NCBI RefSeq assembly: GCF_026410195.1
Contig: NZ_JAPMLM010000069.1
Coordinates: 372,001 to 436,000, forward strand
Direction: 5' to 3'
Source of the DNA: Xanthomarina sp. F2636L
GTDB lineage: Bacteria > Bacteroidota > Bacteroidia > Flavobacteriales > Flavobacteriaceae
DNA length: 64,000 nucleotides
Made by a program: the position numbers and the translations under genes. The notes below the pieces were generated by a model, which worked only from the letters and a program-made list of their open reading frames with translations, was not told where the DNA came from and searched no databases. Shown here piece by piece: positions 10,085-24,710 of this stretch (positions are counted from its first letter, which is position 1; each line of letters begins with the position of its first letter).

Positions 10085-10092
10085 TTAATGGA

Positions 10093-10503: not shown

Positions 10504-10558
10504 AATACTAAGTTGTTGATTATAAAAACAATTTAAAGATAGATAAATAGATATGAAA

Positions 10559-10570: not shown

Positions 10571-10619
10571 GACCTTGGTTTTAACTAAAATCTAACATTA
10601 GTTTAGGCTTTAAAATGAA

Positions 10620-10647
10620 TTGATATTATAAAAAATAGCTAACTTTA
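10620..10647 (+). promoter_or_regulatory. Promoter of the sensor kinase / response regulator operon
   Basis: TTG (10620-10622) and TAACTTTA (10640-10647) are 17 bp apart and fit the Bacteroidetes -33/-7 pattern with a start near 10653, 22 bp before the kinase ATG. No TGAT palindrome lies at the -41 position, so this operon looks independently expressed rather than self-activated. Confidence 0.45.
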
Positions 10648-10674
10648 AGGATTCATATTTATTTAAAATTTCCC

Positions 10675-13092
10675 ATGCTAACAAATAACCATGATGTTTT
10701 TCATAATTTATCCGAAGCCATTTCCGAAGGCATTGTTATAGTAAATGAAAATCAAGAAATAGTTGCATTAAATTCGGCCACAGAACTAATGTTTGGTTAT
10801 AATAAAGGAGAGCTTTTAAACAAACAACTTAGCAGCTTGATACCTGTAAATTTTCATAAAAATCACACCAAATATTTTAAAGAGTTTTTTAAAAATGGAG
10901 AGAAACGCTCTATGGGAATGGATAGAGTTCTGCATGGGGTAAAAAAGAACGACAGTGTTTTTCCTATTGAAGTGGGGTTAAATCCCATGGTTGTTGGAGA
11001 TGAAACATTTGTTATGGCCTTGGTGATTGATATTACAAAACGTGTTGAAATTGAAAAGAATTTACATGTAAAAAGCAAGGCTTTACAGCATGCGAGTAAT
11101 GGAATTGTTATAACGGATGCATTACAAAAAGATCATCCAATTATTTATGCCAATGAAGCTTTTGAGAAAATTACAGGTTATTCTCAAGAAGACATACTAT
11201 ATAAAAATTGCAGATTTTTACAAGCAGACGATACAGATCAAAAAAGTATTAACAAAATAAAAAATGCGATTTCTAAAGGACAAATGTGCCATGTAATTTT
11301 ACGTAATTACAGAAAAGATGGTACCATGTTTTGGAACGAATTGAGTATAACTCCCATAAAAGACAATTTGGGAATTATTACGCACTTTGTGGGAATTCAA
11401 AATGATATTACCAAACGTAAATTAGCAGAAGAGAACGAATTGCATTTTGCCTCCATTTTAGATGAGTCTTTAAATGAAATTTATGTGTTTGATTCTAGTA
11501 GCTTAAAGTTTTTAAATGCAAATTATGGAGCTGTTAAAAATTTAGGCTATTCTTTAGATGAATTAAAGCAGATGACTCCTGTTGATATTAAGCCAGAATA
11601 CACATTAGATAAGTTTAAAAATCAAGTGGAAGACTTATTAAAAAAGCGTGTTGAAAAATTAGAGTTTGAAACAATTCATGAACGTAAAAATGGAAGCACC
11701 TATCCTGTTGAAGTGCATTTGCAATTGTCCGTTTTTGAAGATAAAGAAGTGTTTTTTGCTGTAATTCTCGATATTACAGAAAGAAAGACACAGGAATTGT
11801 TTAAAATTAAGCAAAATCACATTCTGGAATTAATTGTTTTAGACACATCTCTAGAATTCATTTTAAAAGATATTTCTTACTTAATAGAAGAACAGTTTGA
11901 AGATGTTTATGTTTCCATTTTGTTATTAAATCAAGAGGAGAAAAAATTAAAAAGTTTGGTAGCACCAAGTTTACCAGAATCTTATGGAGAAACTATAAAC
12001 AATATATTAATTGGTAAGGACGTAGATGTAAGTGGTATGGCAATATTTCTAGAAAAAGAAACGATGATATCTCATGTTGAAACTCATGAATTATGGGAGA
12101 ACTTCAAGGATCTAGTTTTACCATATGGAATAAAAGCAAGTTGGACAAAACCAATTATGTCTTCTAAAAATAGCATTTTAGGAGTTTTCGCTATTTTTAG
12201 AAAAGAAGACAGAGCATTTTCAAATATAAATAAGCAAGTGGTTGAGGTAGGTGTTAAACTTGCAGGCATTACTATTGAAAAACACTTAACTAATAAATAT
12301 ATAGAAGAAACACAATCTCAACTAGAAAGTTATGCCAAAGACTTACAGGAACAGGTTGAAGAACAGACTCTAGAGTTAAAAATAGCACTTAAAAAAGAGA
12401 TAGAGTTAAACGAGTTAAAAACCAAGTTCCTATCATTAGTGTCTCATGAATTTAAAACACCTTTAAGTGGAATTTTAACGTCTGCCATGTTGTTGAAAAA
12501 ATACACTTTGGCAGATCAGCAGGATAAGAGAAATAAACATATAGACACAATTACCAATATTGTAAATAATTTGAACAATATTTTAAACGATTTCCTATCG
12601 GTTGAAAATCTGGAATCCGGAAAAGTAACCTATCATTTTAAAACATTTAAGTTAAGTAAAGTGTTAAACGAAGTTATTTATAACTCGAATATGCTTTTAA
12701 AAGATGGTCAAAAAATAAAATATCCAGAAAACATAGATGATTTGTCTTTACATCAAGACGAAAAAATATTAGAACTCACCTTGTCAAATATTGTTCATAA
12801 TGCCATTAAATATTCATCAGAAAATGGGCATATAGACATAGAATTGTCTCAAAATAAACATCAAACCGTTTTTAAAATTAAAGATGAAGGCATTGGTATT
12901 CCAGAAGCAGACCAAAAGAATATATTTAATCGTTATTTTAGGGCTGAAAATGTATTAACCATTCAGGGCACAGGAATCGGACTCAATATTGTTAAGAACC
13001 ATTTAGAAAATCTAGGTGGCTCTTTAAGCTTTGTAAGCCAAGAACATGTAGGAAGCACCTTTATAATTACAATACCAAATAAACCAATCTAA
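10675..13092 (+). CDS. LOV-type PAS/GAF hybrid sensor histidine kinase (probable blue-light receptor)
   Basis: 805 aa, no transmembrane segments, so cytosolic. Order: PAS1 (about 8-122), PAS2 (130-250), PAS3 (255-372), GAF (385-540), a coiled-coil linker, HisKA with phospho-acceptor His591 (LVSHEFKTPL) and HATPase_c (DEGIGIP, GTGIGLNIV). PAS2 has the LOV flavin signature NCRFLQ with the photoactive Cys179, and the flavin-contacting residues Asn211 (NYRKDG), Asn221 (FWNEL) and Gln242 (VGIQND) in their expected places. That combination points to a blue-light photoreceptor. PAS1 resembles FixL but has Arg where the haem His would be. The response regulator follows 34 bp downstream and is the probable partner. 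Light sensing is inferred, not shown. Confidence 0.88.
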   Translation: MLTNNHDVFHNLSEAISEGIVIVNENQEIVALNSATELMFGYNKGELLNKQLSSLIPVNFHKNHTKYFKEFFKNGEKRSMGMDRVLHGVKKNDSVFPIEVGLNPMVVGDETFVMALVIDITKRVEIEKNLHVKSKALQHASNGIVITDALQKDHPIIYANEAFEKITGYSQEDILYKNCRFLQADDTDQKSINKIKNAISKGQMCHVILRNYRKDGTMFWNELSITPIKDNLGIITHFVGIQNDITKRKLAEENELHFASILDESLNEIYVFDSSSLKFLNANYGAVKNLGYSLDELKQMTPVDIKPEYTLDKFKNQVEDLLKKRVEKLEFETIHERKNGSTYPVEVHLQLSVFEDKEVFFAVILDITERKTQELFKIKQNHILELIVLDTSLEFILKDISYLIEEQFEDVYVSILLLNQEEKKLKSLVAPSLPESYGETINNILIGKDVDVSGMAIFLEKETMISHVETHELWENFKDLVLPYGIKASWTKPIMSSKNSILGVFAIFRKEDRAFSNINKQVVEVGVKLAGITIEKHLTNKYIEETQSQLESYAKDLQEQVEEQTLELKIALKKEIELNELKTKFLSLVSHEFKTPLSGILTSAMLLKKYTLADQQDKRNKHIDTITNIVNNLNNILNDFLSVENLESGKVTYHFKTFKLSKVLNEVIYNSNMLLKDGQKIKYPENIDDLSLHQDEKILELTLSNIVHNAIKYSSENGHIDIELSQNKHQTVFKIKDEGIGIPEADQKNIFNRYFRAENVLTIQGTGIGLNIVKNHLENLGGSLSFVSQEHVGSTFIITIPNKPI

Positions 13093-13126
13093 GAAGCATA
13101 GAAGCTTGATTTTTAAAAACCAACAA

Positions 13127-14182
13127 ATGAAAACCATATTATTAATTGAAGACGACGAAGTTTTAAGAGAAAACACAGCCGAGTTATTAGAGCTTTCTAG
13201 TTATAAGGTAATAACTGCTTCTAATGGGAAAATGGGAGTTGAAATGACAAAAAACAGCCTTCCAGATATTATTGTTTGCGACATTATGATGCCAGAATTA
13301 GATGGTTATGGAGTTCTTGAAGAATTATCTAAAAGTCCTAAAACTAAACATATTCCATTTATATTTTTATCGGCTAAAACAGAACAGCAAGATGTTAGAA
13401 AAGGAATGAATTTAGGTGCTGACGATTATATAACCAAACCTTTTAACGAAACCGATTTAATAAGTGCCATTGAAAGCAGATTAGCTAAAGCTGCTATTGT
13501 TAAAGAAACCAGAAACAGCATAGAAGAACCTGTTTCAGGAAATAAGGAAGATGATTTAAGAACTTTAAACGATTTAAAGAATTTTTTAGACGATAATGGT
13601 GAAACAATACATTATACAGAAGGTCAGAATATTTATAAACAAGGCGAACATTCTAATGCTATTTTTTTAATAGCCAAAGGCATTGTTAAATGCCATAGTC
13701 TAGACGAAAAAGGTAAAGAACTAATAACAGCCCTTTATAAAGAAGACGATTTGTTTGGTTACACATCTTTTATTCAAAATATTCCATATCAAGAGTCTGC
13801 CACGGCTATAAAAGAAACAACCTTAGTAAGTGTATCTAAAAATATATTAAAAGATGTTTTAGTTAACAATCATGAAGTAACACTTGAGTTAATCCAATTA
13901 CTTACAGATAATTTATTTCATGTAAAAGAACAATTACTACAAATGGCTTATGGTTCTGTAAACCAAAAAACAGCTCAAACTATTATTAAATTTTCAGAAA
14001 AGTTAAATAGAAAACCAGACGAACCTATCAGAATTTCAAGAAACGATTTGGCAAGTGTGGCTGGAATTGCTACTGAAACTTTAATAAGAACCATGACCCT
14101 TTTTAAAAAACAAGGCCTTATTGAAATTGAAGGTAGAAATATAAAGATTCTAGATATTGAAAGGCTTAAGGAAATATATTAA
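13127..14182 (+). CDS. Response regulator with CRP/FNR-type cNMP-binding and HTH domains
   Basis: 351 aa from ATG 13127; an in-frame TTG at 13106 is less likely. Receiver domain (1-125) with acidic pocket E8/D9/D10, phospho-acceptor Asp52 (VCDIMMPE) and the Lys of DDYITKPF. A cyclic-nucleotide-binding fold (about 165-275) follows, then a winged helix (about 280-351). The recognition helix ETLIR (Glu317, Arg321) aligns with FNR ETISR, keeping the Glu and Arg that read the GA core while the FNR Ser is Ile. No Cys cluster for Fe-S is present, so oxygen sensing of the FNR kind is unlikely. It probably binds TGAT-N4-ATCA sites found just downstream. Confidence 0.88.
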   Translation: MKTILLIEDDEVLRENTAELLELSSYKVITASNGKMGVEMTKNSLPDIIVCDIMMPELDGYGVLEELSKSPKTKHIPFIFLSAKTEQQDVRKGMNLGADDYITKPFNETDLISAIESRLAKAAIVKETRNSIEEPVSGNKEDDLRTLNDLKNFLDDNGETIHYTEGQNIYKQGEHSNAIFLIAKGIVKCHSLDEKGKELITALYKEDDLFGYTSFIQNIPYQESATAIKETTLVSVSKNILKDVLVNNHEVTLELIQLLTDNLFHVKEQLLQMAYGSVNQKTAQTIIKFSEKLNRKPDEPIRISRNDLASVAGIATETLIRTMTLFKKQGLIEIEGRNIKILDIERLKEIY

Positions 14183-14204
14183 AAGGCCTATAATAAGGGC
14201 TATA

Positions 14205-14247
14205 TGATTTATATCATTTTATAGTTTACACTTCAAGCTTACTTTTG
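14205..14247 (+). promoter_or_regulatory. TGAT-N4-ATCA operator and promoter of universal stress gene 1
   Basis: Palindrome TGATTTATATCA (14205-14216) is followed by a perfect -7 box TACTTTTG (14240-14247), 35 bp from palindrome start to box start. The start point would be near 14252, placing the palindrome centre close to -41.5, the class II activator position of CRP/FNR proteins. There is no good -33 TTTG, as expected for activator-dependent promoters. Confidence 0.65.
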
Positions 14248-14263
14248 AGTTTTAAGTTATTGA

Positions 14264-15109
14264 ATGATGAAAAATGTTTTATTACCAACGGATTTTTCAG
14301 AAAACTCATGGAATGCTATTAAGTATGCTCTAGATTTTCATGAGAAGATAGAATGTAATTTTTTCCTACTACACGTTAATAGACTAAGTCACGCTGCCAT
14401 AAGTCACGCGCCATATTTGCCTACTCAGGAAGTTATTGAAGATGTTTATACCAAACCTGCAAAAATGCAATTGGATAATATGTTAAAACGTATTATTGGG
14501 TACAAGCCACAAAGTAAAAAACATAAATTCTATACCATTTCCGATTACAATTTTTTTGTGGAATCTATAAGAGAACATGTAGAAGAAAAAAACATTGATC
14601 TTATTGTTATGGGAACCAAAGGTGCTTCTGGTTTAAGAAAAGTTATTGTTGGTAGTAATGCGGGAGATGTTATCACAAAAGTGGCTTGTTCTACTTTGGT
14701 TGTTCCAGAAAACGCATCGTTTAAGAAAATTGAAGAAATTGCATTTCCAACAGATTTTTCATTGCAATACAACATCAATACGCTTGAACCAATTTTAAAA
14801 ATAGTTCAAGATAATCAAGCAGCTCTTAGAGTTGTTCACATTAGTAAAAGACAAACCGATTTAAACAGAGATCAAATGCAAAACAAAGAGTTGCTTGAAG
14901 ATTATTTTCATGCAAACCCACATAGTTTTCATTTTTTAACCAATAAAAAAGTGGAAAAAGCTGTACAATGTTTTGTTGAGAGTAGAGATGTTGACATGAT
15001 AACTATGATAGGCAAAAATTTGAATTATTTTCAACAAATTCTGTTTCATTCAAAAGTGGAAGAAATAAGCTATCACATTAATATTCCGTTTTTAGTATTA
15101 CACAATTAA
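14264..15109 (+). CDS. Universal stress protein, tandem UspA domains (1)
   Basis: 281 aa, two UspA folds. Domain 1 (1-150) has the ATP-binding pattern MGTKGASGLRKVIVGSNAGDVITK (G-2x-G-9x-G-S/T); domain 2 (150-281) lacks it and is degenerate. Proteins of this family act in survival under stasis, oxidative or anaerobic stress. ATG codons at 14264 and 14267 are both possible. It heads a two-gene operon with the membrane protein that starts 11 bp after its stop, and has its own operator/promoter about 12 nt upstream of the start. Confidence 0.92.
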   Translation: MMKNVLLPTDFSENSWNAIKYALDFHEKIECNFFLLHVNRLSHAAISHAPYLPTQEVIEDVYTKPAKMQLDNMLKRIIGYKPQSKKHKFYTISDYNFFVESIREHVEEKNIDLIVMGTKGASGLRKVIVGSNAGDVITKVACSTLVVPENASFKKIEEIAFPTDFSLQYNINTLEPILKIVQDNQAALRVVHISKRQTDLNRDQMQNKELLEDYFHANPHSFHFLTNKKVEKAVQCFVESRDVDMITMIGKNLNYFQQILFHSKVEEISYHINIPFLVLHN

Positions 15110-15120
15110 ATAAATAAATT

Positions 15121-15507
15121 ATGGATACATCTATTTTCTTAGCTAAATTTTGGGGTTGGTATTTAATTATCTTTTTTGTAATTCTTACTTTTAATCCCAG
15201 ACGCATTAAACAAGTTTTTAATGATTTGAGAGATGAAAAGTTCCTGATTATTACTTCGTTTGTCGCCATTATAGTTGGTTTGTTAAATATTTTATTTCAC
15301 AATATTTGGGACCCTAACTGGAAACTTATAATTACCTTAATAGGTTGGATGGCATTATTTAAAGGGTTAACATTATTTACCTTTCCTAAACAAACCGTTA
15401 AGAGGCTTAACTATATAAATGTAAAATTTGTTCAGGTAATTTATATGTTGCTTTTTCTGTTAGGGATTTTTCTTTTAAACATAGCCTATAATATAGTTCC
15501 ATATTAA
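15121..15507 (+). CDS. Small four-helix membrane protein, unknown function
   Basis: 128 aa with four hydrophobic segments: about residues 3-22 (SIFLAKFWGWYLIIFFVILT), 41-60, 67-88 and 100-122. Conserved-looking HNIWDPNW lies between segments 2 and 3. No motif I recognise; similar small integral membrane proteins with an NPRR-like loop occur beside stress genes. Co-transcribed with the universal stress gene 11 bp upstream. The next palindrome starts 26 bp after its stop codon. Confidence 0.75.
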   Translation: MDTSIFLAKFWGWYLIIFFVILTFNPRRIKQVFNDLRDEKFLIITSFVAIIVGLLNILFHNIWDPNWKLIITLIGWMALFKGLTLFTFPKQTVKRLNYINVKFVQVIYMLLFLLGIFLLNIAYNIVPY

Positions 15508-15532
15508 TATTATTATAAAAAAATAATGAAAC

Positions 15533-15575
15533 TGATAAATGTCATTTTTAATTTTTAAAATTGGCTTTATCTTAG
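15533..15575 (+). promoter_or_regulatory. TGAT-N4-GTCA operator and promoter of candidate small RNA A
   Basis: TGATAAATGTCA (15533-15544, one mismatch to the palindrome) starts exactly 35 bp before TATCTTAG (15568-15575), a one-off match to TAnnTTTG. Predicted start about 15581. No protein gene follows before a strong terminator at 15702-15738. Confidence 0.5.
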
Positions 15576-15580
15576 AGATA

Positions 15581-15738
15581 TATTAAAACGATAGTTTGTT
15601 ATTCATGATGTATAGTTTGTTAAGGACTATCTTTTTAGATAGCCTTCAATATAATCTAACAATGAAAGAGGAATCATTATTAGATTTAAGCTATTAATCT
15701 TAGAAAGCCAAAATTTTAAATTTTGGCTTTCTTTTTTT
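15581..15738 (+). ncRNA. Candidate small RNA A (about 158 nt), stress-regulon promoter to terminator
   Basis: The interval runs from the predicted start to a terminator with a 15-bp stem. It contains an internal hairpin (AAGGACTATCT at 15622-15632, arms closing at 15646). The only reading frame is an 11-codon one (15662-15697, MKEESLLDLSY) with no clear ribosome site, ending just before the terminator. It is most likely a regulatory RNA, less likely a mini-peptide mRNA. I do not recognise the family. Confidence 0.45.
15702..15738 (+). terminator. Rho-independent terminator of small RNA A
   Basis: A near-perfect 15-bp stem built from AGAAAGCCAAAATTT and its complement around a 1-nt turn region, followed by a run of T (15732-15738). 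Confidence 0.8.
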
Positions 15739-15742
15739 AAAC

Positions 15743-15785
15743 TGATATATATCATAAAATAGCTCTAATAAAATGTTTAATTTTA
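15743..15785 (+). promoter_or_regulatory. TGAT-N4-ATCA operator and promoter of candidate small RNA B
   Basis: Perfect palindrome TGATATATATCA (15743-15754) starts 35 bp before TAATTTTA (15778-15785), which differs from TAnnTTTG only in the last base. Predicted start about 15791. It lies only 5 bp after the preceding terminator, so it must drive a separate transcript. Confidence 0.6.
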
Positions 15786-15790
15786 TACCA

Positions 15791-15981
15791 TAAATTAGTG
15801 TTTATATGGTTAAAGGTTATTGTTTTAAAAGGACATAACCAAATTAAGGGTTCTTGAGTAATTATATAACCGAATTTAATTTATCTTAATAAAATAAGAT
15901 AGATTTATAACTTTTAAAAAGGTTATTAAATACTATAGAACACCTAAAAAGCGAGAAAGATTATCTTTCTCGCTTTTGTTT
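15791..15981 (+). ncRNA. Candidate small RNA B (about 190 nt)
   Basis: The interval between promoter 15743-15785 and terminator 15947-15981 has no plausible gene. It contains several local stems: CCATA/TATGG (15788-15809), GGTTAT/ATAACC (15815-15840) and TATCTTA/TAAGATA (about 15883-15902). Together with its own operator-linked promoter this suggests a structured regulatory RNA of the stress regulon. Family not recognised. Confidence 0.45.
15947..15981 (+). terminator. Rho-independent terminator of small RNA B
   Basis: A 14-bp stem (AAAAGCGAGAAAGA, loop TTA, and its complement) spans 15947-15977, followed by GTTTT. Confidence 0.8.
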
Positions 15982-15999
15982 TATATAGATTTTTTCTTC

Positions 16000-16042
16000 T
16001 GATATTTATCATAGTTTTCCCTTCATGTTTTGGCTAACTTTA
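16000..16042 (+). promoter_or_regulatory. TGAT-N4-ATCA operator and promoter of the five-gene usp operon
   Basis: TGATATTTATCA (16000-16011) starts 35 bp before TAACTTTA (16035-16042). Predicted start about 16048, 18 nt before the ATG at 16066. No -33 TTTG is visible in the right place, consistent with activator dependence. Confidence 0.65.
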
Positions 16043-16065
16043 TCTCTACAATCAATATTGATACC

Positions 16066-16914
16066 ATGAGGAAAATATTAATACCTACAGATTTTTCAGA
16101 TAATGCTTTCAATGCTATAAAATATGCTTTGGAGCTTTTTAAGTACGATATAAGTCAGTTTTATATCATGCACGCATATCAGGATGAAATCTATGCAGAC
16201 GAAACGTTATTGAACAGACAAAAACTGGATACAATTACCAAGCAGGTTCATAAAACGTCGACTAAAAAGCTAGAGAATGTCCTAAAACTCATTAATGATA
16301 TTTCACCCAACCCTAGACATGAATACCACATAATTTCTACCAATAATATTCTTGTAGATGAAGCAGATAAAATTGTTGACAAGGAAAATATAGATGTTAT
16401 TGTCATGGGAACAAGAGGAGAAACAAACGACAGAAGATTAACCTTTGGTTCTCATACGTTGCAAGTTTTAAAATATGTGCAGTGCCCTGTTTTGGCTATA
16501 CCAGAAAATTATAAATACACCCAGCCAAAACACATCATGTTTCCTACCAATTATATGATTCCATATAAGAGAAGAGAATTAAAATTACTTTGCGAATTAG
16601 CAGTGCCTTTTAGAGCTAAAATAGATGTGGTATATATTTCAAAAAGTGATAAACTCTCTATGAGGCAAGAAGACAATAAAAGGTTTATTAATAATGAATT
16701 GTGTAAAAATCAAATCAATTTTTTAAACATTAAAAATAAAGATATTACAAAATCAATTTTAAATTATATTGAAATAAATGATGTGGATATGTTAGTTATG
16801 GTAAATACCAGACATTCATTTTTAGAAAATATCTTATTTCAAAGCACAATTTCTAAACTTAGTTTACACTTAGAAATTCCGTTTTTGGCTTTACAGAACA
16901 TTAAACGTATTTAA
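16066..16914 (+). CDS. Universal stress protein, tandem UspA domains (2)
   Basis: 282 aa from ATG 16066; an upstream in-frame TTG at 16030 overlaps the predicted -7 box and is rejected. Domain 1 begins MRKILIPTDFSDNAFNAIKY and has MGTRGETNDRRLTFGSHTLQ, a variant nucleotide loop with several changes to the G-2x-G-9x-G(S/T) pattern. Domain 2 (about 150-282) is a degenerate UspA. First gene of an operon of five (usp, usp, nuclease, beta-CASP hydrolase, coiled coil), with 15 bp to the next gene. Confidence 0.9.
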   Translation: MRKILIPTDFSDNAFNAIKYALELFKYDISQFYIMHAYQDEIYADETLLNRQKLDTITKQVHKTSTKKLENVLKLINDISPNPRHEYHIISTNNILVDEADKIVDKENIDVIVMGTRGETNDRRLTFGSHTLQVLKYVQCPVLAIPENYKYTQPKHIMFPTNYMIPYKRRELKLLCELAVPFRAKIDVVYISKSDKLSMRQEDNKRFINNELCKNQINFLNIKNKDITKSILNYIEINDVDMLVMVNTRHSFLENILFQSTISKLSLHLEIPFLALQNIKRI

Positions 16915-16929
16915 TTAAAAATTAAAATC

Positions 16930-17778
16930 ATGAAAAAGATATTATTACCAACAGATTTTTCAGAAAATTCATGGAATGCCATATCCTATGCATTGCAATT
17001 GTTTAAAGACGAAAAATGCACATTTTATTTACTGCACACCTATACACCTATTGTGTATCATCTAGAATACGTGATGATGAGCGCTTCGCAAATTGGTTTG
17101 GAAGATATTGTAAAACAGCAGGCTCTTAAAAGTTTAGAAGATTTTGAAAAAAGAATTAATGAGCAGTATAACAATCCTAATCATAGTTTTAAAGGCCAAG
17201 TTGTGTTTAACACCTTAACTTTAGAGGTTGCAGAACAAGTTAAAGAGCACCAAATAGATTATGTGATTATGGGAACAAAGGGTGCAACAGGTGCAAAAGA
17301 AGTACTGTTTGGATCCAATGCAGTTCATATTTTTAAACAAGCAAAATGTCCAGTTCTAGCTATACCAGATAGTTTTAATTTTGAAGCACCAAGTCATATC
17401 TTATTCCCAACAGATTATGAAATTGATTATAAAAACGAACAGGTTAAGCCACTTGTGGAGTTGTCCAAAATGCATCAGACTAAGATTAATGTTTTGAATG
17501 TATCTTATGGAAGAGATTTAGCTTCAAATCAACAAAAAAACAAAGCTACTTTATCAAGTTTATTTAAAGATTTAAATTTCGAGTTTTTTAGTGTAAAAAA
17601 TCAAGAAATAACTCAGGCAATTAGCGATTTTCAAGCAGAGTCTCCAGCCGATATGCTAATCATGATAAATAATAAACACTCGTTTTTTGAAAATTTATTT
17701 TTCAAATCCACAATTAGTCAAATAGGGTTTCATTTAAACATTCCATTTTTGGTGATACCGGCAAAAGCAAGGAAGTAA
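16930..17778 (+). CDS. Universal stress protein, tandem UspA domains (3)
   Basis: 282 aa. N-terminus MKKILLPTDFSENSWNAISY is nearly identical to the other copies in the cluster. Domain 1 has a canonical ATP-binding stretch, MGTKGATGAKEVLFGSNAVH. Domain 2 (about 150-280) lacks it. Likely arose by local duplication, though the copies are well diverged. 11 bp separate its stop from the nuclease-like gene. Confidence 0.92.
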   Translation: MKKILLPTDFSENSWNAISYALQLFKDEKCTFYLLHTYTPIVYHLEYVMMSASQIGLEDIVKQQALKSLEDFEKRINEQYNNPNHSFKGQVVFNTLTLEVAEQVKEHQIDYVIMGTKGATGAKEVLFGSNAVHIFKQAKCPVLAIPDSFNFEAPSHILFPTDYEIDYKNEQVKPLVELSKMHQTKINVLNVSYGRDLASNQQKNKATLSSLFKDLNFEFFSVKNQEITQAISDFQAESPADMLIMINNKHSFFENLFFKSTISQIGFHLNIPFLVIPAKARK

Positions 17779-17789
17779 TACATTGTAAC

Positions 17790-18626
17790 ATGGATCCTAA
17801 CATAGAAATTATTAAATCTTCTGGCGAAAAGGTAAAATTTTCGTTAGAAAAGTTACGAGCCTCTTTAAACCATTCCGGAGCAGATAAAGAACTCGTAAGT
17901 CAGATAATTGATAAGGTTCGTGACGAATTATATCAAGGTATTTCAACCAAAGAAATTTATAATAGAGCCTTTTCTTTATTGAAAAATAAGAAAAGCTATT
18001 TTGCTTCTAAATACAAATTAAAAAAGGCTATATACGAACTTGGTCCAACAGGTTTTCCCTTTGAAAATTTTATAGCAGCTATTTTTACATATTCTGGATA
18101 TAAAGCTCAAGTTGGGAAAATATTACAAGGTCATTGTGTAACTCACGAGATTGATGTTGTAGCTCATAAAAATGAAGAAACAACTATTGTGGAATGTAAA
18201 TTCCATAGTGAAGAAGGCCGGAATTGCAATGTAAAAGTTCCTCTTTATATAGCAGCTAGATTTAAAGATGTAAAAACACATTGGGATTCTAAATCACATA
18301 AATCTAATTTGAATGAAGGTTGGGTTGTAACCAATACGCGTTTTACGGAAGATGCCTTGCAATATGGAAAATGTATAGGCTTAAAATTACTAAGTTGGGA
18401 TTATCCCAAAGAGGATGCTTTAAAAGATAAAATAGACAGATTAGGATTGTATCCTATAACGGTTTCAACACTTCTTACAAAAAGAGAAAAACAGTTTTTG
18501 CTAAGTAGAGATGTGGTTTTGTGTAAAGATTTAATTGGAGATGCTTTTTATCTCGATCATTTAGGTGTTTCCGAAGTTAGAAAAGAAAGAATTCTAAAAG
18601 AAATTAAACAACTATGTAATAGCTAA
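17790..18626 (+). CDS. ATP-cone domain fused to a Mrr-type PD-(D/E)XK nuclease-like domain
   Basis: 278 aa. Residues 1-90 look like an ATP-cone, the nucleotide-sensing module of ribonucleotide reductases and NrdR (IEIIKSSGEKVKFSLEKLRA, then YFASKYKLKKAIYELGPTGF). Residues about 95-210 are a restriction-endonuclease-like fold with Asp122 (EIDVVAH) and Glu135-Cys-Lys137 (VECKFH), a full PD-(D/E)XK core. The C-terminus (about 225-278) is helical, perhaps helix-hairpin-helix. Nucleotide-gated DNA or RNA cleavage is an inference. No methyltransferase is nearby, so it is not a classical restriction enzyme. It sits between usp genes and a beta-CASP hydrolase. Confidence 0.8.
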   Translation: MDPNIEIIKSSGEKVKFSLEKLRASLNHSGADKELVSQIIDKVRDELYQGISTKEIYNRAFSLLKNKKSYFASKYKLKKAIYELGPTGFPFENFIAAIFTYSGYKAQVGKILQGHCVTHEIDVVAHKNEETTIVECKFHSEEGRNCNVKVPLYIAARFKDVKTHWDSKSHKSNLNEGWVVTNTRFTEDALQYGKCIGLKLLSWDYPKEDALKDKIDRLGLYPITVSTLLTKREKQFLLSRDVVLCKDLIGDAFYLDHLGVSEVRKERILKEIKQLCNS

Positions 18627-18629
18627 GTC

Positions 18630-20003
18630 ATGGAAAATTTTGTTAGAATACATTTTTTAGGAGCTTCAGGAGTGGTAACGGGATCTAAGTTTTTGATTGA
18701 AACTTCAGAAAAAAACATCTTGATAGATTGTGGCATGTTTCAAGGTTTAAAAGAATTAAGAGAGCTAAACTGGACTAATTTATCTGTTGATGTAGAAGAA
18801 ATTGATGTGGTTTTGTTGACACATGGACATTTAGATCATGTAGGTTATTTGCCAAGACTTGTAAAACAAGGGTTTCAAGGTAAAATTATTGGAACAGCTC
18901 CAACTCTTGCCATTGCAGAAATTATATTAAGGGATAGTGCTAAAATCCATGAAGAAGAAGCAGAAAAGGCTAACAAGGAACACTATACAAAACACAATCC
19001 AGCCTTGCCTTTTTACACCATTCGCGAAGCAGAAAAAACCATAAGAATGTTTCAAGCAGAAGCGGATGATAAGTGGATTAAATTAACTGAAAATATTTCA
19101 TACAGATTCCAATATAACGGACACATAATTGGCGCCACATTTATCGAGTTAGATATATCTGGAAAGCGCTTTGTGTTTTCCGGCGATATTGGCAGAGTCA
19201 ACGATTATTTATTAGATAAACCTAAAAGGCCAGAATGGGCAGATTTTTTGTTTATTGAAAGTACCTATGGAAATAAATTGCATCCAGAAGAAGATGTTGA
19301 AGAGATATTATCTAAACTAGTTAAGGAAACCATTCATAAAAAAGGCAGCTTAATTATACCAAGTTTTGCTGTAGAAAGACTTCAAACGTTAATGTATATT
19401 CTCTGGAAATTGTATCAGAAAAACAAAATTCCAAACATTCCTATTTTTATTGATAGTCCTATGGGAAATAACGTATTGGAAGTGTTTAAACAGTTTCCAA
19501 AATGGCATAAACTTTCAGATGAAGAATATCGAGCTATGTGTAACCATGTAAATATTATTCAATCTTATAAAGAAACCTGGGAAACCATTGATGATAAACG
19601 TCCAAAAATAGTAATTGCAGGAAGTGGTATGGTAACTGGAGGGAGAGTTTTAACCTATTTGCAACAGCTGATAGACGAAGAATCAACAACAGTTTTATTA
19701 GTTGGGTATCAAGCAGAAGGAACGCGAGGCAGACAATTACTGGAAGGAGCTCATGAAATTAGGTTCTTTGGTAAATATTATCCTGTAAAAGCAAGTATTA
19801 AACACATGGAGAGTTTATCGGCTCATGCAGATCAAAAGGACTTATTAGATTGGATGGAGAACATTAAAAACATTCCAGAAAAAGTCTATTTAATTCATGG
19901 TGAACCTACAGCATTAGATGCTTTTAGAGTTAAAATTAAAGACAGATATAATTGGAACGCTTGTATTCCAAAACTTTCAGATGTAGAAACACTTATGTTA
20001 TAA
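18630..20003 (+). CDS. Beta-CASP metallo-beta-lactamase fold hydrolase (CPSF73/Ysh1-like putative RNase)
   Basis: 457 aa. MBL zinc motif H65-G-H67-L-D69-H70 (THGHLDHVGYLP), NGHIIGAT and FSGDIG (later ligands), then a beta-CASP insert and the C-terminal RMMBL segment (MESLSAHADQKDLLDW, VYLIHGEP). This is the layout of CPSF73-like nucleases, suggesting RNA processing, and the full metal set implies activity. It is 3 bp after the nuclease gene, so the two are probably translated together. The bacterial representatives next to usp genes have no defined substrate. Confidence 0.9.
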   Translation: MENFVRIHFLGASGVVTGSKFLIETSEKNILIDCGMFQGLKELRELNWTNLSVDVEEIDVVLLTHGHLDHVGYLPRLVKQGFQGKIIGTAPTLAIAEIILRDSAKIHEEEAEKANKEHYTKHNPALPFYTIREAEKTIRMFQAEADDKWIKLTENISYRFQYNGHIIGATFIELDISGKRFVFSGDIGRVNDYLLDKPKRPEWADFLFIESTYGNKLHPEEDVEEILSKLVKETIHKKGSLIIPSFAVERLQTLMYILWKLYQKNKIPNIPIFIDSPMGNNVLEVFKQFPKWHKLSDEEYRAMCNHVNIIQSYKETWETIDDKRPKIVIAGSGMVTGGRVLTYLQQLIDEESTTVLLVGYQAEGTRGRQLLEGAHEIRFFGKYYPVKASIKHMESLSAHADQKDLLDWMENIKNIPEKVYLIHGEPTALDAFRVKIKDRYNWNACIPKLSDVETLML

Positions 20004-20022
20004 TTTTTTAAATGGTTAGATA

Positions 20023-20442
20023 ATGAATACGCAACTAGAATATAAAAGTTTTAATAGAGAAAAATCTATTGATGAATTGCAATATACCATGAACTCTCAA
20101 ATTGAAAAACTTCAAATTCTTAAAGAAGAATTACACTTTTTACAGTTTTTGATGTCTGCCGATATTTATAAAAATAAAATAATGAATCTTTTTGAAGATC
20201 TAGAACGTTATAAAAAAGAGCTTAACAATTACAGTAGTAAATGTGGAAAACTAATAATTGATGCTAATTTTCAAGCAAATCAAATTAGAAATAAAAAAAA
20301 ATGCGATGAGCTGGCTTGCGATAATTATTTTATAGACACATATAACGAATCAGAAAAAAAGATTCACAAACTAATCAATCAAATAAGAATATTGAAATTA
20401 GAAATCTATAATTTTTTGCCAGCTGTTATTAAAACAGAATGA
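20023..20442 (+). CDS. Coiled-coil hypothetical protein
   Basis: 139 aa, not recognised. Charged and helical throughout (for example IEKLQILKEELHFLQFL, NESEKKIHKLINQIRIL), with Cys83 and Cys102-type residues but no motif. It ends the usp-nuclease-MBL operon, 19 bp after the hydrolase stop. Small, cytosolic and probably oligomeric. No hairpin terminator is obvious right after it; another operator starts 30 bp downstream. Confidence 0.7.
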   Translation: MNTQLEYKSFNREKSIDELQYTMNSQIEKLQILKEELHFLQFLMSADIYKNKIMNLFEDLERYKKELNNYSSKCGKLIIDANFQANQIRNKKKCDELACDNYFIDTYNESEKKIHKLINQIRILKLEIYNFLPAVIKTE

Positions 20443-20471
20443 TAGATGAATATTTTTTTAGCATAAATAAC

Positions 20472-20514
20472 TGATAGATATCATTTTAAAACTTTGCTTT
20501 CATTCTTAAATTTG
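20472..20514 (+). promoter_or_regulatory. TGAT-N4-ATCA operator and promoter of candidate small RNA C
   Basis: TGATAGATATCA (20472-20483) starts 35 bp before a perfect -7 box TAAATTTG (20507-20514). Predicted start about 20520. No protein gene lies downstream on this strand before the convergent universal stress gene. Confidence 0.6.
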
Positions 20515-20519
20515 TGTCC

Positions 20520-20678
20520 AAGAAAAGATATCTCCCTAGATATTAATAGTAGGCTGTCTGAATCTTTTAAAATTTTTTTACTTATAAAGTAAAACTTAGT
20601 CAAGTTCCATATTGTTAGTTAGAAATTAAATAAGGCTGAGTTTTAAAAGTTTTAATGGATTTTCAGGCAGTCTTTTTA
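20520..20678 (+). ncRNA. Candidate small RNA C (about 160 nt) closed by a long-range stem
   Basis: Within the predicted transcript, GGCTGTCTGA (20552-20561) can pair with TCAGGCAGTC (20663-20672) over 10 bp including two G-U pairs, and the right arm is followed by TTTTT (20673-20677). This could be both the closing stem of the RNA and its terminator. The G-U pairs favour an RNA over an inverted-repeat DNA element, but a MITE-like remnant cannot be excluded. No reading frame of note. Confidence 0.4.
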
Positions 20679-20728
20679 TTTTCAATTTCATTCATATTAT
20701 GGTACAACCAAAAAGTGTCAAAAAGAGT

Positions 20729-21565
20729 TTAATCACTATGTAAAATAAGTAAAGGCACTTTTAAGTCTTGGCTTATTTTTTTTGTTTCAGAACCTGTAAG
20801 AAACCGTTCAAAAGCTGTCTCTTTTTGAACAAGTAAGGCCATAAGGTCGATATCTTGCGTTTGTAAATAATTATCTACAGCATCATGTGTTGCCATGTTT
20901 TTGACCAATTGATATGAATGTGTAACATGTTTAAGATGTGTTTGGATATATTCCTGATCTTTTTCTACTTCTATAGAAGTGTCGTCCTTTGGGTTGATTC
21001 TTAGAATGTTCAAAGAGGTATTAAACTGTTTAATGTAGTTTTTTAGTTTTAAAAAAGCATGGCTGTTTAAAGAGTCTAACATATCCAATGGTAGAAATAT
21101 GCTCTCAGGTTTTTTATATAAAAACCCTTTAGGCACAACTAAAGTAGAGCAATCTACTTTTCTAATAACATTTATGGTATTGCTGCCAAAAATGACTTCT
21201 TTTGCTCCAGTAGCCCCATTGGTACCCATAACAATTAGGTCTATTTTATTTTTGTTTATTATTTGGTTTACAGAATCTGTAAGTGTATCGTAATCAACAA
21301 CAGGTTCAAACGTAGTATTTTTGTTTAACGAAGCAGTCTCTAACGTTTTTACAAACTTCTCTAATTTATGTTTTGCTTTTTTTACTAAAGAATCATAAAT
21401 ACTCTTATTACCAGCAGACATTAAATCGCTTGTTGTATAAACTGATTTTGTTGGAATGTGTAGAATAGTAAAATGACAAGCCTCATTTTCAAAAAGCGCT
21501 AAAGCGTAGTTTATAGCATTTTTGGAATTTTTAGAAAAATCTGTTAGTAATAGAATCTGCTTCAT
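20729..21565 (-). CDS. Universal stress protein, tandem UspA domains (4)
   Basis: 278 aa on the minus strand. MKQILLLTDFSKNSKNAINY opens domain 1, which contains MGTNGATGAKEVIFGSNTIN, a complete ATP-binding pattern; domain 2 is degenerate. It faces the other three usp genes but shares the operator type, which suggests common control. The leader from the predicted start (about 21655) to the ATG is about 90 nt. Confidence 0.92.
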   Translation of the reverse strand: MKQILLLTDFSKNSKNAINYALALFENEACHFTILHIPTKSVYTTSDLMSAGNKSIYDSLVKKAKHKLEKFVKTLETASLNKNTTFEPVVDYDTLTDSVNQIINKNKIDLIVMGTNGATGAKEVIFGSNTINVIRKVDCSTLVVPKGFLYKKPESIFLPLDMLDSLNSHAFLKLKNYIKQFNTSLNILRINPKDDTSIEVEKDQEYIQTHLKHVTHSYQLVKNMATHDAVDNYLQTQDIDLMALLVQKETAFERFLTGSETKKISQDLKVPLLILHSD

Positions 21566-21659
21566 GGGTATCTGTGTTTTTATTTCAAAAGCAACAACTA
21601 AATAATGACTTTTTAATTGTTTTAATAAGCCAAGACTGTTAGTTGCTTATAATCTAGAC

Positions 21660-21702
21660 TAAAATTATAAAAAATATAATGTTGCAGATATGATATTAGT
21701 CA
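21660..21702 (-). promoter_or_regulatory. TGAC-N4-ATCA operator and promoter of universal stress gene 4
   Basis: Read on the minus strand: TGACTAATATCA (21702-21691, one mismatch) begins 35 bp before TAATTTTA (21667-21660), the same -7 variant as the small RNA B promoter. The same spacing on the opposite strand argues against chance. Confidence 0.6.
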
Positions 21703-21711
21703 TTTATAAAC

Positions 21712-21742
21712 AAAAAAAGACCCTCAAGTTATTGAGAGTCTT
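21712..21742 (-). terminator. Rho-independent terminator of the Ala-rich lipoprotein gene
   Basis: On the minus strand AAGACTCTCAA, loop TAAC and TTGAGGGTCTT form an 11-bp stem followed by a T run (21717-21712). It separates the lipoprotein transcript from the usp gene downstream. Confidence 0.8.
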
Positions 21743-21767
21743 ATAATTTTGTTGAAGTATAATGTAA

Positions 21768-22142
21768 TTAGTTACCTCCTTTTACTGCATTTGCAGCGTC
21801 ATTTGCAGCTTTTTTTGTTGCATCAGCAGCATCTTTAGCAGCTTTTTCAGTTGCATTTGCAGCGTCATCAATAGCTTCTCCTGTTGCATCAGCAGCATTG
21901 TCGATAGCTTCACCAGCCTCATCAATAGCTTCACCAGCAGCATCCATTGCGTTGTCAGCAGCTTCTTCAGCATCTTTAGCAGCTTCTTCAGCAGCATCCA
22001 TAGCATCATCAGCAGTTTCTTCCATTGCATCAGCAGCGTTTTCCATTGCATCAGCAGCGTTTTCTTCTTTTGTATCTCTACAAGAAGTGAAAGTTAAACT
22101 TAGGCACAATAATAATACAGTACTTAATAATAATTTTTTCAT
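21768..22142 (-). CDS. Ala/Asp/Glu-rich repetitive lipoprotein (LEA-like)
   Basis: 124 aa. Signal peptide with lipobox LTFTSC (Cys21), then about 100 residues made almost only of Ala, Asp, Glu, Lys, Asn and Thr in short 7- and 11-residue helical repeats (AADAMENAADAMEE, GEAIDEAGEAIDNAADATGE). It turns from acidic to basic near the end (EKAAKDAADATKKAANDA). This resembles LEA-like and other stress-related repetitive lipoproteins, probably a long amphipathic helix in the periplasm. The coding DNA has a perfect 21-bp tandem repeat. Proximity to the stress regulon is suggestive only. Confidence 0.75.
   Translation of the reverse strand: MKKLLLSTVLLLCLSLTFTSCRDTKEENAADAMENAADAMEETADDAMDAAEEAAKDAEEAADNAMDAAGEAIDEAGEAIDNAADATGEAIDDAANATEKAAKDAADATKKAANDAANAVKGGN
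22022..22063 (-). repeat. 21-bp tandem direct duplication within the Ala-rich lipoprotein gene
   Basis: Two identical 21-bp copies (22022-22042 and 22043-22063) encode two 7-residue units (NAADAME). Because the length is a multiple of three, copy-number change keeps the frame, so this region could expand or contract. Confidence 0.85.
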
Positions 22143-22249
22143 TAGTTAAAGTTTTAGTGTTAAAAATTAATGAGCGAATTTAATAACTAATTGTGTAACT
22201 TTTGCAAGTTTATTAACAATTTTTAACATAATTATTTCAATTCTATAAA

Positions 22250-23521
22250 TTAATCTTCATATGTACGTATAAAAGACATGATTTGGATGACAGAACCTCT
22301 ATTATTTTTAATGTATTCTAAGTTTTTTTGTCCAGTTTCATTTCTAAAATTATAGTTATTTATAAGTTTGTCAAGCAGTTGTGTTAATTTTTTTGAATTT
22401 ACAACAGAAAACATGCCTTGATTTTTTATCATGGCTTTTGCTTCAGGAAAATTATCATAATGTTGGCCAATAATAATTGGAATGCCAAAAACAGCAGGCT
22501 CAAGAGTATTGTGTAAGCCAGTTTTACCTATTGCACCACCTACATAAGCAATATTTGCATAGCTATAAACCTTAGTAAGTAATCCAATAGTATCTAAGAT
22601 GAGTACTTGCGACTCAGAAATATCACTTTTTTCTTTTTCAGAAAAGAGGACTGTTTTTTTATTAATGGATTGTTTTAGTTTTAGTATCTGAGCTGTTTTT
22701 ATATTATGAGGTGCTATAATAAATTTTATTGCGTCGGTTTCATAGGAATTGATGTAATCTACTAACAACATCTCATCTTCAGGCCATGTGCTTCCAGCGA
22801 CTACACAAAGCTTATCATTTTTAAAATCAGCAATAAAATCCAACTTATTGTCATGTTCTAATTGACTGTAAACACGATCGAACCTTGTATCCCCAGAAAT
22901 AGTTACATCTTTATAGCCAATACTTTCTAGTAATTTTTTTGAATTTTCATCTTGGGTAAATATATGTTGAAAGGCAAATAGAGCCATTTTCATAAATCCA
23001 CCATAAGACTTAAAGTAGATTTGGTTATCTCTAAATAAGGCCGAAATTAAAACAGCTTTTAATTCTCTTTTTTTAAGCTCATTTAAAATATTTGGCCATA
23101 TATCGTACTTTACAAATACAGTTAATTCTGGGTGAACTAGATTTAAAAATTTTGTGGCATTGGTTTTTGTGTCAAGAGGAAGATAGACTACAACGTCTGC
23201 AATCTCTGTGTTTTTTCTAATCTCATATCCTGAAGGAGAGAAGAAGGTTAAAATTATTTTATGGTTTGGATGTGTTTTTCGTAACTCTTTAAAAACGGGT
23301 AGACCTTGTTCGTATTCACCCAAAGAGGCACAATGAAACCATAGGGTTTTGTCGGTTTTAGAAATCTTACTTTTTAAGATGTTGAAAGTATCTTTCCTTC
23401 CATTTACGCCAAGTTTTATTTTAAGGTTGAACCATGAAATCACCTTCAATACCATTTGTGTAAAGTAAATCCCTAAATTATAAATTAGTTGCAATTTTGA
23501 ATCTTTCTTGCTAAAATACAC
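22250..23521 (-). CDS. kdtA: 3-deoxy-D-manno-octulosonic acid transferase (KdtA/WaaA)
   Basis: 423 aa as drawn. N-terminal membrane-associated segment, then FHCASLGEYEQGLPVFKELR with the catalytic Glu (ASLGEYEQG), KYDIWPNILNEL, VAGSTWPEDE and the C-terminal GGAIGKTGLHNTLEPAVFGIP of GT-B Kdo transferases. It adds Kdo to lipid A precursor at the inner membrane. The start is uncertain: 23521 is GTG; a TTG at 23494 (giving QLIYNLGIYF after the initiator) fits family starts better. Divergent from the aminotransferase gene. Confidence 0.88.
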   Translation of the reverse strand: MYFSKKDSKLQLIYNLGIYFTQMVLKVISWFNLKIKLGVNGRKDTFNILKSKISKTDKTLWFHCASLGEYEQGLPVFKELRKTHPNHKIILTFFSPSGYEIRKNTEIADVVVYLPLDTKTNATKFLNLVHPELTVFVKYDIWPNILNELKKRELKAVLISALFRDNQIYFKSYGGFMKMALFAFQHIFTQDENSKKLLESIGYKDVTISGDTRFDRVYSQLEHDNKLDFIADFKNDKLCVVAGSTWPEDEMLLVDYINSYETDAIKFIIAPHNIKTAQILKLKQSINKKTVLFSEKEKSDISESQVLILDTIGLLTKVYSYANIAYVGGAIGKTGLHNTLEPAVFGIPIIIGQHYDNFPEAKAMIKNQGMFSVVNSKKLTQLLDKLINNYNFRNETGQKNLEYIKNNRGSVIQIMSFIRTYED

Positions 23522-23539
23522 TTCTTTAATAAAATTTCA

Positions 23540-23570
23540 TTGCTTAACGTTTACTAATTTCGTAATTTCG
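23540..23570 (+). promoter_or_regulatory. Promoter of the aminotransferase-galE pair, possibly leaderless
   Basis: TTG (23540-23542) and TAATTTCG (23563-23570) with 20 bp between; a second identical TAATTTCG sits immediately before it (23555-23562). The downstream box would put the transcription start at about 23576-23577, i.e. at the A of the ATG at 23577. Confidence 0.4.
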
Positions 23571-23576
23571 TAGGGT

Positions 23577-24710
23577 ATGAAAAAAATTCAAATGGTTGAC
23601 CTAAAAGGTCAGTATAAAGATATAAAAGATGCTGTTAATCCTGCCATTCAGGAAGTTATTGAAAACACATCTTTCATTAATGGACCAAAGGTTCATGAGT
23701 TTCAAAAAAACCTTGAAAACTATTTAGGAGTCAAGCATGTAATTCCTTGTGCCAATGGTACAGATGCTTTGCAAATAGCCATGATGGGCTTGGGATTAAA
23801 GCCAGGAGATGAGGTGATAACGGCCGATTTTACTTTTGCAGCAACCGTAGAAGTAATTGCTTTATTGCAATTAACTCCAGTTTTAGTAGATGTAAATCCT
23901 GACGATTTTAATATAGACATCGAAGCTATAAAAAAAGCTATTACACCAAAAACCAAAGCGATAGTTCCCGTGCATTTATTTGGTCAATGTGCCAATATGG
24001 AAGCCATTATGGAGATTGCTAAGGAGCATAACTTATATGTTATTGAAGATAATGCACAAGCTATTGGAGCAACTTACACGTTTAGCAATGGTAAAAAAGC
24101 CAAAGCAGGAACGATTGGCCATGTAGCTTCAACGTCTTTTTTTCCTTCTAAAAACTTAGGATGTTATGGAGATGGAGGTGCTATTTTTACTAATGATGAT
24201 GATTTAGCACATACCATTAGAGGAATCGTAAATCACGGCATGTACGAACGTTATCATCACGATGTGGTTGGTGTAAATTCCAGATTAGACTCCATTCAAG
24301 CAGCCGTTTTAGATATCAAATTACAAAAATTGGATGGGTATAATAAAGCTAGAAGAGAAGCTGCAAATAAATATAACGACGCGTTTAAACATATAGATGA
24401 AATATCAACACCTTTTGAATATGGTGCACCAGAAAATCATGTGTTTCATCAATATACATTAAAATTAAAAGATGTGGACAGAGATGGACTTGTTAAGTTT
24501 TTAAATGACAATGATATTCCTTGTGGTGTTTATTATCCAATTCCACTTCACAAACAAAAAGCTTATAAAGATTCGCGTTATAACGAAGCAGATTTTGAAG
24601 TTACAAACCAATTAGTAAAAGATGTTATTTCTTTACCAATGCATACCGAATTGGATGATGAGCAAATTAAATTCATAGTATCTAAAATTATAGAATATAT
24701 ACATGGCTAA
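23577..24710 (+). CDS. DegT/DnrJ/EryC1/StrS-family PLP-dependent aminotransferase
   Basis: 377 aa. PLP-binding Lys192 in FFPSKNLGCYGDGGA, Asp/Gln in IEDNAQAIGA, and CANGTDALQIAMMGLG near the N-terminus are typical of sugar aminotransferases of the SMAT family. These make amino-sugars for lipopolysaccharide, glycans or exopolysaccharide; the exact sugar cannot be told. Its last codons overlap the start of galE by 8 bp, so translation is coupled. Its neighbour across the divergent promoter is the Kdo transferase gene, in keeping with surface glycan synthesis. Confidence 0.9.
   Translation: MKKIQMVDLKGQYKDIKDAVNPAIQEVIENTSFINGPKVHEFQKNLENYLGVKHVIPCANGTDALQIAMMGLGLKPGDEVITADFTFAATVEVIALLQLTPVLVDVNPDDFNIDIEAIKKAITPKTKAIVPVHLFGQCANMEAIMEIAKEHNLYVIEDNAQAIGATYTFSNGKKAKAGTIGHVASTSFFPSKNLGCYGDGGAIFTNDDDLAHTIRGIVNHGMYERYHHDVVGVNSRLDSIQAAVLDIKLQKLDGYNKARREAANKYNDAFKHIDEISTPFEYGAPENHVFHQYTLKLKDVDRDGLVKFLNDNDIPCGVYYPIPLHKQKAYKDSRYNEADFEVTNQLVKDVISLPMHTELDDEQIKFIVSKIIEYIHG

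Follow-up and report, generated by a model that had tools for sequence, protein, structure and literature searches.

We describe a regulatory region in a 64,000-nucleotide (nt) stretch of the Xanthomarina sp. F2636L genome (Flavobacteriaceae; contig NZ_JAPMLM010000069.1, positions 372,001 to 436,000), hereafter the window. Six promoters in the window carry a TGAT-N4-(A/G)TCA palindrome at a fixed distance from the −7 box. Our preferred reading, to which we assign a probability of about 0.75, is that these sites are class II Fnr/Crp boxes of σA promoters. They would be read by RR-CRP, a receiver-Crp fusion protein encoded alongside, and probably also by Fnr. On the same reading, two gene-free stretches behind such boxes are tandem genes for trans-acting small RNAs (sRNAs). 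Neither the box nor its position is new in kind. The gene-free stretches, at 15580-15738 and 15790-15982, are the most novel part and were understated by an earlier description of this DNA (the sequence-only reading); they appear to represent an undescribed family of structured small RNAs.

Boxes, spacing and the predicted regulon

All six palindrome/−7 pairs were read directly from the sequence. Upstream of usp1, a universal stress protein gene, the box is at 14205-14216 (TGATTTATATCA) and the −7 box at 14240-14247 (TACTTTTG), with a predicted transcription start at 14252. The pair at 15533-15544 (TGATAAATGTCA) and 15568-15575 (TATCTTAG) is upstream of candidate sRNA copy 1, and that at 15743-15754 (TGATATATATCA) and 15778-15785 (TAATTTTA) is upstream of sRNA copy 2. 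The usp2 gene is preceded by a box at 16000-16011 (TGATATTTATCA), a −7 box at 16035-16042 (TAACTTTA) and a predicted start at 16047. The pair at 20472-20483 (TGATAGATATCA) and 20507-20514 (TAAATTTG) precedes a third gene-free stretch. These five pairs are on the plus strand. The sixth, upstream of usp4, is on the minus strand, with its box at 21702-21691 (TGACTAATATCA), its −7 box at 21667-21660 (TAATTTTA) and a predicted start at 21655. Each palindrome begins 35 bp before its −7 box, a gap of 23 bp. Four palindromes are perfect and two have one change; three sites are upstream of usp genes and three upstream of gene-free stretches. The sequence-only reading had these positions, offsets and counts right. 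The −7 box at 15568, of the TTAG type, is the only one in the window that deviates from TAnnTTT(G/A).

The transcription start map of Flavobacterium psychrophilum (PMC9723704) puts the −7 box at −12 to −5. With this placement, the palindrome is centred at −41.5, the class II activator position that had been proposed. The sites thus have the two-fold TGA-N6-TCA arrangement, centred at −41.5, of Crp/Fnr class II promoters. A seventh box, absent from the sequence-only reading, is found at 2331-2342. It has −7 boxes at the same offset in both directions (2366-2373, plus; 2307-2300, minus) and is flanked by a patatin-like gene (minus) and an MlaE-like permease gene or operon (plus), named by eye. 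A palindrome at 36544 had no −7 box at gaps of 8-38 bp.

The bare TGATN4RTCA sequence gives 14 strand-matches at nine places in the window, compared with 5.1 expected, and 1 of 100 shuffles was as high. Because this enrichment is only moderate, the case rests on spacing. We scanned the 3.37 Mb genome for TGAYN4RTCA-N{8,38}-TANNTTTR, which allows 31 gaps. Of 44 palindrome/−7 pairs, 24 had a gap of 23 bp and 20 were distributed over the other 30 gaps (mean 0.67 per gap). With the gap fixed at 23 bp, the strict pattern matched 25 sites and the reversed pattern one; the additional site is one that the variable-gap scan reported at a shorter gap. The window site at 15533, with its TTAG box, falls outside the strict 25. 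Allowing one mismatch at the fixed gap, TGATN4RTCA had 55 matches and the reversed pattern 17. Across 100 genomes of the family there were 1338 fixed-gap sites and 50 for the reversed pattern. Chance palindromes in AT-rich sequence could account for the window's palindrome count in one shuffle of 100. This explanation is contradicted by the gap-23 excess and the reversed-pattern control across the family; we reject it and leave it next to no probability. At the 24 gap-23 sites the fourth base of the half-site is T in 12 and C in 12, so TGAC/GTCA is as common as TGAT/ATCA.

Of the 25 strict sites, 22 have a mechanically called open reading frame (ORF) that can begin 0-90 nt past the predicted transcription start; C58:192247 and, in the window, 15743 and 20472 do not. 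We compared ten of the 21 downstream proteins with Pfam, and NadA with NCBIfam. Genes downstream of a box include those for cbb3 oxidase (a ccoS-like gene, named by eye, then ccoNO, with COX1 and FixO domains). Oxygen-independent coproporphyrinogen oxidase, HemN (TIGR00538), and copper nitrite reductase, NirK (TIGR02376), were both recognised above cut-off. Also linked to boxes are genes for c-type cytochromes, a dicarboxylate symporter, a pyridine-nucleotide oxidoreductase, a CBS protein and two more universal stress proteins. The gene for quinolinate synthase, NadA, follows a site whose −7 box is looser.

Such content is known from the FNR and Anr regulons of oxygen limitation. The E. coli FNR box is TTGAT-N4-ATCAA, and we take the box described here to carry the core of classical FNR/Crp half-sites. 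The six sites are part of a genome-wide and family-wide Fnr-type oxygen-limitation regulon, as judged from its predicted targets. The sequence-only reading had spoken of a previously unnamed stress regulon. With 25 strict sites genome-wide, an FNR/Crp-like core and microaerobic and denitrification genes among the predicted targets, this name is too narrow, although the usp genes genuinely belong. The arrangement resembles FNR, Anr and Crp class II promoters in its TGAT-N4-ATCA core, its centre at −41.5, its candidate activator of the Crp family and its targets (cbb3 oxidase, HemN, nitrite reductase and Usp). Unlike those promoters, it has the Bacteroidota-type TAnnTTTG element at −7, TGAC/GTCA half-sites are equally common, and the candidate readers include a receiver-Crp fusion as well as an Fnr-like protein. 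The regulon architecture of flavobacteria is poorly mapped. A single, strictly spaced box allows the low-oxygen regulon to be listed from sequence in most genomes of the family.

Candidate readers of the box

RR-CRP is encoded on the plus strand at 13106-14182 (likely start 13127). It consists of a receiver domain (Response_reg, E 7e-29), a cNMP-binding domain and a Crp helix-turn-helix, and is a candidate activator. Residues D9, D52 and K104, the acidic pocket and phospho-acceptor aspartate of an orthodox response regulator, are invariant in 20 aligned proteins. No N-terminal cysteine cluster for a [4Fe-4S] centre was found in RR-CRP, the N terminus of which is the receiver; its only two cysteines are within IIVCDIMMP and IVKCHSLD. 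A scan of genome contigs, in which most matches were to bare receivers, identified full-length relatives in named Bacteroidota, among them Aquimarina, Salinimicrobium, Chitinophaga and Jiulongibacter. The genome encodes four proteins with a Crp-type helix-turn-helix. Besides RR-CRP these are two on C58 and a 225-residue Fnr-like paralogue (C54:203012-203686) with an N-terminal CxxC, encoded near the cbb3 (cco) genes. The latter does not reach the Fnr profile cut-off (best match NF008365, 88.2 bits; cut-off 228). The recognition helices of the Fnr-like protein (ATESAIR) and RR-CRP (ATETLIR) are similar.

The 100 family genomes were split according to the presence of an RR-CRP and an Fnr orthologue, each at E≤1e-60. 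The median number of fixed-gap sites was 23.5 with both regulators (22 genomes), 14 with RR-CRP only (20 genomes), 11 with Fnr only (35 genomes) and 1 with neither (23 genomes). Below the threshold, several RR-CRP-only genomes and four of the 'neither' genomes (G010, G020, G043 and G051) have weaker Crp-family matches. Mann-Whitney p-values are 1e-7 for RR-CRP only against neither, 4e-9 for Fnr only against neither and 8e-6 for both against Fnr only; because the genomes are related these overstate independence and are indicative only. Since RR-CRP-only and Fnr-only genomes both exceed those with neither, either regulator is associated with the box.

Linkage was examined in 20 RR-CRP loci from 19 of the 41 other RR-CRP genomes in the sample (L089 and L097 are from the same genome). 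A box is directly 3' of RR-CRP in 19 of these loci (L092 excepted), and in 18 it precedes a usp1-like gene. Among nine RR-CRP-usp1 loci added later (L135, L137, L138, L140, L141 and L143-L146) the box is present in seven, L141 and L143 being the exceptions.

The sequence-only reading had the regulator encoded next door. A Crp-family protein does adjoin the sites, and box counts track its presence, as the co-occurrence in RR-CRP-only genomes illustrates. The neighbour is not the only candidate, because the box is also associated with the stand-alone Fnr paralogue. Exclusive regulation by RR-CRP is ruled out; Fnr-only genomes also carry the box. The richness of those genomes in sites, together with the relatedness of the genomes compared, tells against our preferred reading. 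So does G048, which has 29 fixed-offset sites and in which neither regulator was found (this assembly is 82% complete and 6% contaminated). The converse possibility is that the six sites are read only by stand-alone Fnr, or by another Crp-family paralogue, and that RR-CRP has other targets. The CxxC protein near the cbb3 genes, the Fnr-only median, the like recognition helices and the two further Crp-type proteins are in its favour. We consider it quite unlikely. The median is still 14 sites in RR-CRP genomes in which no Fnr orthologue was found at E≤1e-60, several of them with weaker Crp-family matches, and the box recurs directly 3' of RR-CRP in relatives. From these patterns we infer binding and activation by RR-CRP or Fnr.

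A family of structured RNAs

Two stretches separate the usp1 operon from usp2. Both have a box, a −7 element and a hairpin resembling a terminator. As far as sequence features go, each has the promoter and terminator of an independent sRNA gene. Candidate copy 1 (15580-15738, plus) is diverged; it has a terminator-like 3' hairpin and its 3' half is strongly conserved in four congeners. Copy 2 (15790-15982, plus) contains the part matched by our RNA model at 15844-15978, with a terminator-like hairpin at 15947-15977. Three consecutive boxes and similar sequence are kept in three congeners (G038, G199 and G203), and a further congener, G204, has three RNA-model matches. In other genera the equivalent positions contain between one and three elements of 130-220 nt; loci added later have as many as four. 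The later tandem copies in relatives are often without a box of their own.

A first model, R1, was trained on 12 of 15 elements aligned; window copy 1, its G038 homologue and L091_2 were omitted. In the training set covariation is seen in the terminator stem and in a long stem at the centre, with 19 of 35 pairs changed on both sides. No shuffle of 500 was as high, and sliding the structure gave 9-13 pairs. A search of 199 family genomes with R1 returned 45 matches in 24 genomes, seven of which were training sources. We then fetched 18 loci. Fourteen were submitted, of which 11 yielded 23 sequences outside the R1 training set and L137, L142 and L146 gave no match with default filters; L147, L148, L151 and L152 were not included. 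In the 23 sequences, 28 of the 35 pairs have changes on both sides and 93.4% of cells are paired. Fitting the alignment to the model favours pairing; the controls are nevertheless far off, with 7-14 pairs and 43-53% of cells paired when slid and none of 500 shuffles reaching the observed level. Compensatory changes are thus present in sequences not used for model building.

A second model, R2, was built only from those 23 sequences, and hence without the window. R2 finds copy 2 at 15844-15977 (42.8 bits, E 1.8e-7). Copy 1 scores 18.7 bits (E 0.031) and its homologue in G038 30 bits (E 4.7e-4); E-values of both models are rough by the tool's own statement. Judged by its sequence, copy 1 is probably a diverged member of the family. 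Rfam had nothing for window positions 10000-24000 up to E 1. For the 11 RNA loci it gave six sub-threshold matches, none above the gathering score, for FnrS or any other family, and none to 6S; one was to the L20 leader fold (32.5 bits; gathering score 58.7).

In 397 family genomes searched with R2, 68 from 55 of 237 genera were positive at E≤1e-3, and 44 at E≤1e-6. Eleven genomes supplied R2 training sequences and match by construction. The strict filters used missed G038, which has a copy. RR-CRP is present in 187 of the 397 genomes: 61 of the 68 RNA-positive and 126 of the 329 others (Fisher p 9e-16). The R1 training loci had been chosen for holding RR-CRP, so their seven source genomes were dropped in a recount. 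The association persisted: 55 of 62 RNA-positive genomes had RR-CRP, compared with 125 of 328 others (p 4e-14), and among genomes with strong matches the count was 38 of 39 (p 4e-13). The two genes are also neighbours. RR-CRP is within 5 kb of an RNA (E≤1e-6) in 36 of the 44 strong genomes, or in 31 of 39 without five R1 training genomes. The RNA is directly behind the divergent RR-CRP genes of G007 and G031 (50 and 47% identity).

Of the 18 loci added once R1 had been searched, 14 have a box at the exact offset, 86-306 nt before the model start of the first copy. RNA promoters usually have TAnnTTAG at −7 (18 of 22 cases, from seven training loci, 14 later loci and a second copy of L149). When sites of four box types are pooled over 34 loci, TTAG accounts for 43 of 180. 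A GTTCTT/GTTCCT element, 14-30 positions past the −7 box, is present in 14 of 23 leaders, where 0.6 would be expected in shuffles. The window copies are without it.

Several results weigh on the other side. Copy 1 has the low R2 score given above. With filters off, R1 also scores the opposite strands of hairpins, at about 29-37 bits; because of this, weak model scores mean little and some of the 24 weaker genomes may be false. Seven of the 68 RNA-positive genomes are without RR-CRP. In eight of the 44 strong genomes RR-CRP is more than 5 kb off or absent: in G108, G253 and G382 it lies on the same contig at a distance of 9-28 kb, in G111, G125, G263 and G309 it is farther or on another contig, and it is missing from G138. 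There is no box in front of the RNA in loci L147, L148, L151 and L152. The third gene-free stretch (20519-20680, plus) forms hairpins and is a weak sRNA candidate; membership of the RNA family was rejected, R2 having no match there up to E 1. Nor was there support for a multi-copy repeat, the only other match in the genome being 21 nt. A long match was found in one of seven congeners (G203) and short matches in G202. In G038 and other genera the box corresponding to 20472 precedes a protein gene of about 150-176 codons. For copy 1, a coding role was also considered. The 11-residue MKEESLLDLSY frame is open, by eye, in three of four congeners; it is not favoured because an indel breaks the frame in G203.

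We infer transcription of the RNAs, and their action in trans, from the arrangement of these elements. In the mechanism we propose, the adjacent kinase would phosphorylate the RR-CRP receiver, and phosphorylated RR-CRP would activate class II promoters at the box. Fnr would add oxygen control at the same or overlapping sites. The protein targets would serve low-oxygen respiration and stress survival. The same boxes would drive the RNAs as short transcripts ending at their own terminators, and these would most likely act post-transcriptionally in the low-oxygen or stress response. Base-pairing with mRNAs is the mechanism we prefer, in the manner of FnrS, the post-transcriptional trans-acting sRNA of the E. 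coli low-oxygen response.

Two other functions have to be weighed against base-pairing in trans. The main rival, which we think unlikely, is that the RNAs are a multi-copy sponge for a protein, as 6S or CsrB are. Tandem copies do keep the fold while much of the sequence varies, and several terminator hairpins have a common GAAACAGGAAG stem. The GTTCTT/GTTCCT element, missing as it is from the window copies, would suit a pairing seed better, and Rfam gave no 6S match. It is very unlikely, in our estimate, that the stretches are instead cis-acting leaders or attenuators of the usp2 operon. They do precede usp2, both in the window and in several relatives, end in terminator-like hairpins and faintly resemble the L20 leader fold. 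However, usp2 carries its own box and −7 element downstream of the RNAs, and the arrays of L137 and L145 are followed by genes on the opposite strand. For these reasons trans action is likelier than attenuation. In addition, the arrays of L149 and L150 are directly 3' of RR-CRP, with another box before the next gene.

The candidate genes resemble FnrS and other FNR/ANR-activated sRNAs in having their own Fnr-type promoter and a 3' terminator. They differ in the lack of an Rfam match, in a long central stem that covaries, in occurring as up to four copies in tandem and in a chromosomal tie to RR-CRP and usp genes. Rfp18 of F. psychrophilum (PMC9723704), compared here by its description, is likewise a conserved flavobacterial sRNA; that paper links it to protease expression, and CRP/FNR has no occurrences in its main text. 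Among the matches listed in searches of open-licence literature (titles and abstract openings), none reported the RNA family or the RR-CRP fusion, nor did any describe this regulon for flavobacteria. As the searches covered open-licence papers only, this absence is weak evidence. Few flavobacterial sRNAs have a known regulator. For the RNA family, the promoter logic, the probable regulator and a conserved location in the genome are already given, which opens its function to direct testing.

Sensor kinase and neighbouring genes

Adjoining RR-CRP is a gene for a sensor histidine kinase of 805 amino acids (10675-13092, plus) with HisKA, HATPase_c and multiple PAS domains, including a LOV domain. 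A palindrome at 10559, upstream of this gene, is without a −7 box at gap 23 and has a minus-strand −7 box at gap 17. The LOV domain (residues 136-253; nt 11080-11433, plus) has the NCRFLQ motif, with the reactive cysteine of LOV photoreceptors, and the following conserved NYRKDGTMFWNELSITPI strand. It matches LOV-FixL constructs and structures (phmmer, E 8e-38) and the NCBIfam YtvA_fam model at 161.9 bits, under the cut-off of 250. YtvA-type photoreceptors have the same two motifs; here, unlike there, the domain is inside a multi-PAS histidine kinase. The system is like FixL-FixJ-FixK in leading from a sensor kinase and response regulator to a Crp/Fnr-type protein with microaerobic targets. 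It is unlike it in combining receiver and Crp-type output in one protein, and in the LOV domain of the kinase.

Of 41 loci, not every one holding the complete kinase, six had the LOV signature, namely those of the window and three congeners, L145 and L151. A looser pattern additionally flags L093. The L151 locus (G037), from position 2059, encodes a divergent RR-CRP (40% identity) and a 924-residue LOV kinase, and is from a different genus. The kinase frames of 18 of the 20 relatives' loci fall short of 510 residues and do not have the signature, so light can be no more than an additional input, and only in some lineages. Should the LOV kinase function as expected from its sequence, light would be tied to the anaerobic and stress response in the genus. 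Tentatively, the LOV kinase and RR-CRP could place the Fnr-type regulon and a tandem FnrS-like sRNA array under joint blue-light and oxygen/redox control in this genus, with the family-wide RR-CRP/sRNA/usp module a dedicated low-oxygen riboregulatory unit. We regard this extension as doubtful.

The remaining genes around the sites are as follows. The usp1 gene (14264-15109, plus) is followed by a gene for a 128-residue protein with a sub-threshold DUF373 match (15121-15507, plus), a frequent usp1 partner. A likely operon at 16066-20442 (plus) comprises usp2 (16066-16914), usp3 (16930-17778), an ATP-cone/Mrr_cat protein gene (17790-18626), a beta-CASP metallohydrolase gene (18630-20003) and a gene for a 139-residue protein (20023-20442). 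The fusion of an ATP-cone to an Mrr-type nuclease domain, followed by beta-CASP, is seen in the window and in 13 of the 14 relatives' loci showing it; the fourteenth, L095, is cut by the display range. The universal stress protein gene usp4 is at 20729-21565 (minus). Upstream of it, at 21768-22142 (minus), is a gene for a protein that by eye is alanine-rich, repetitive and lipoprotein-like.

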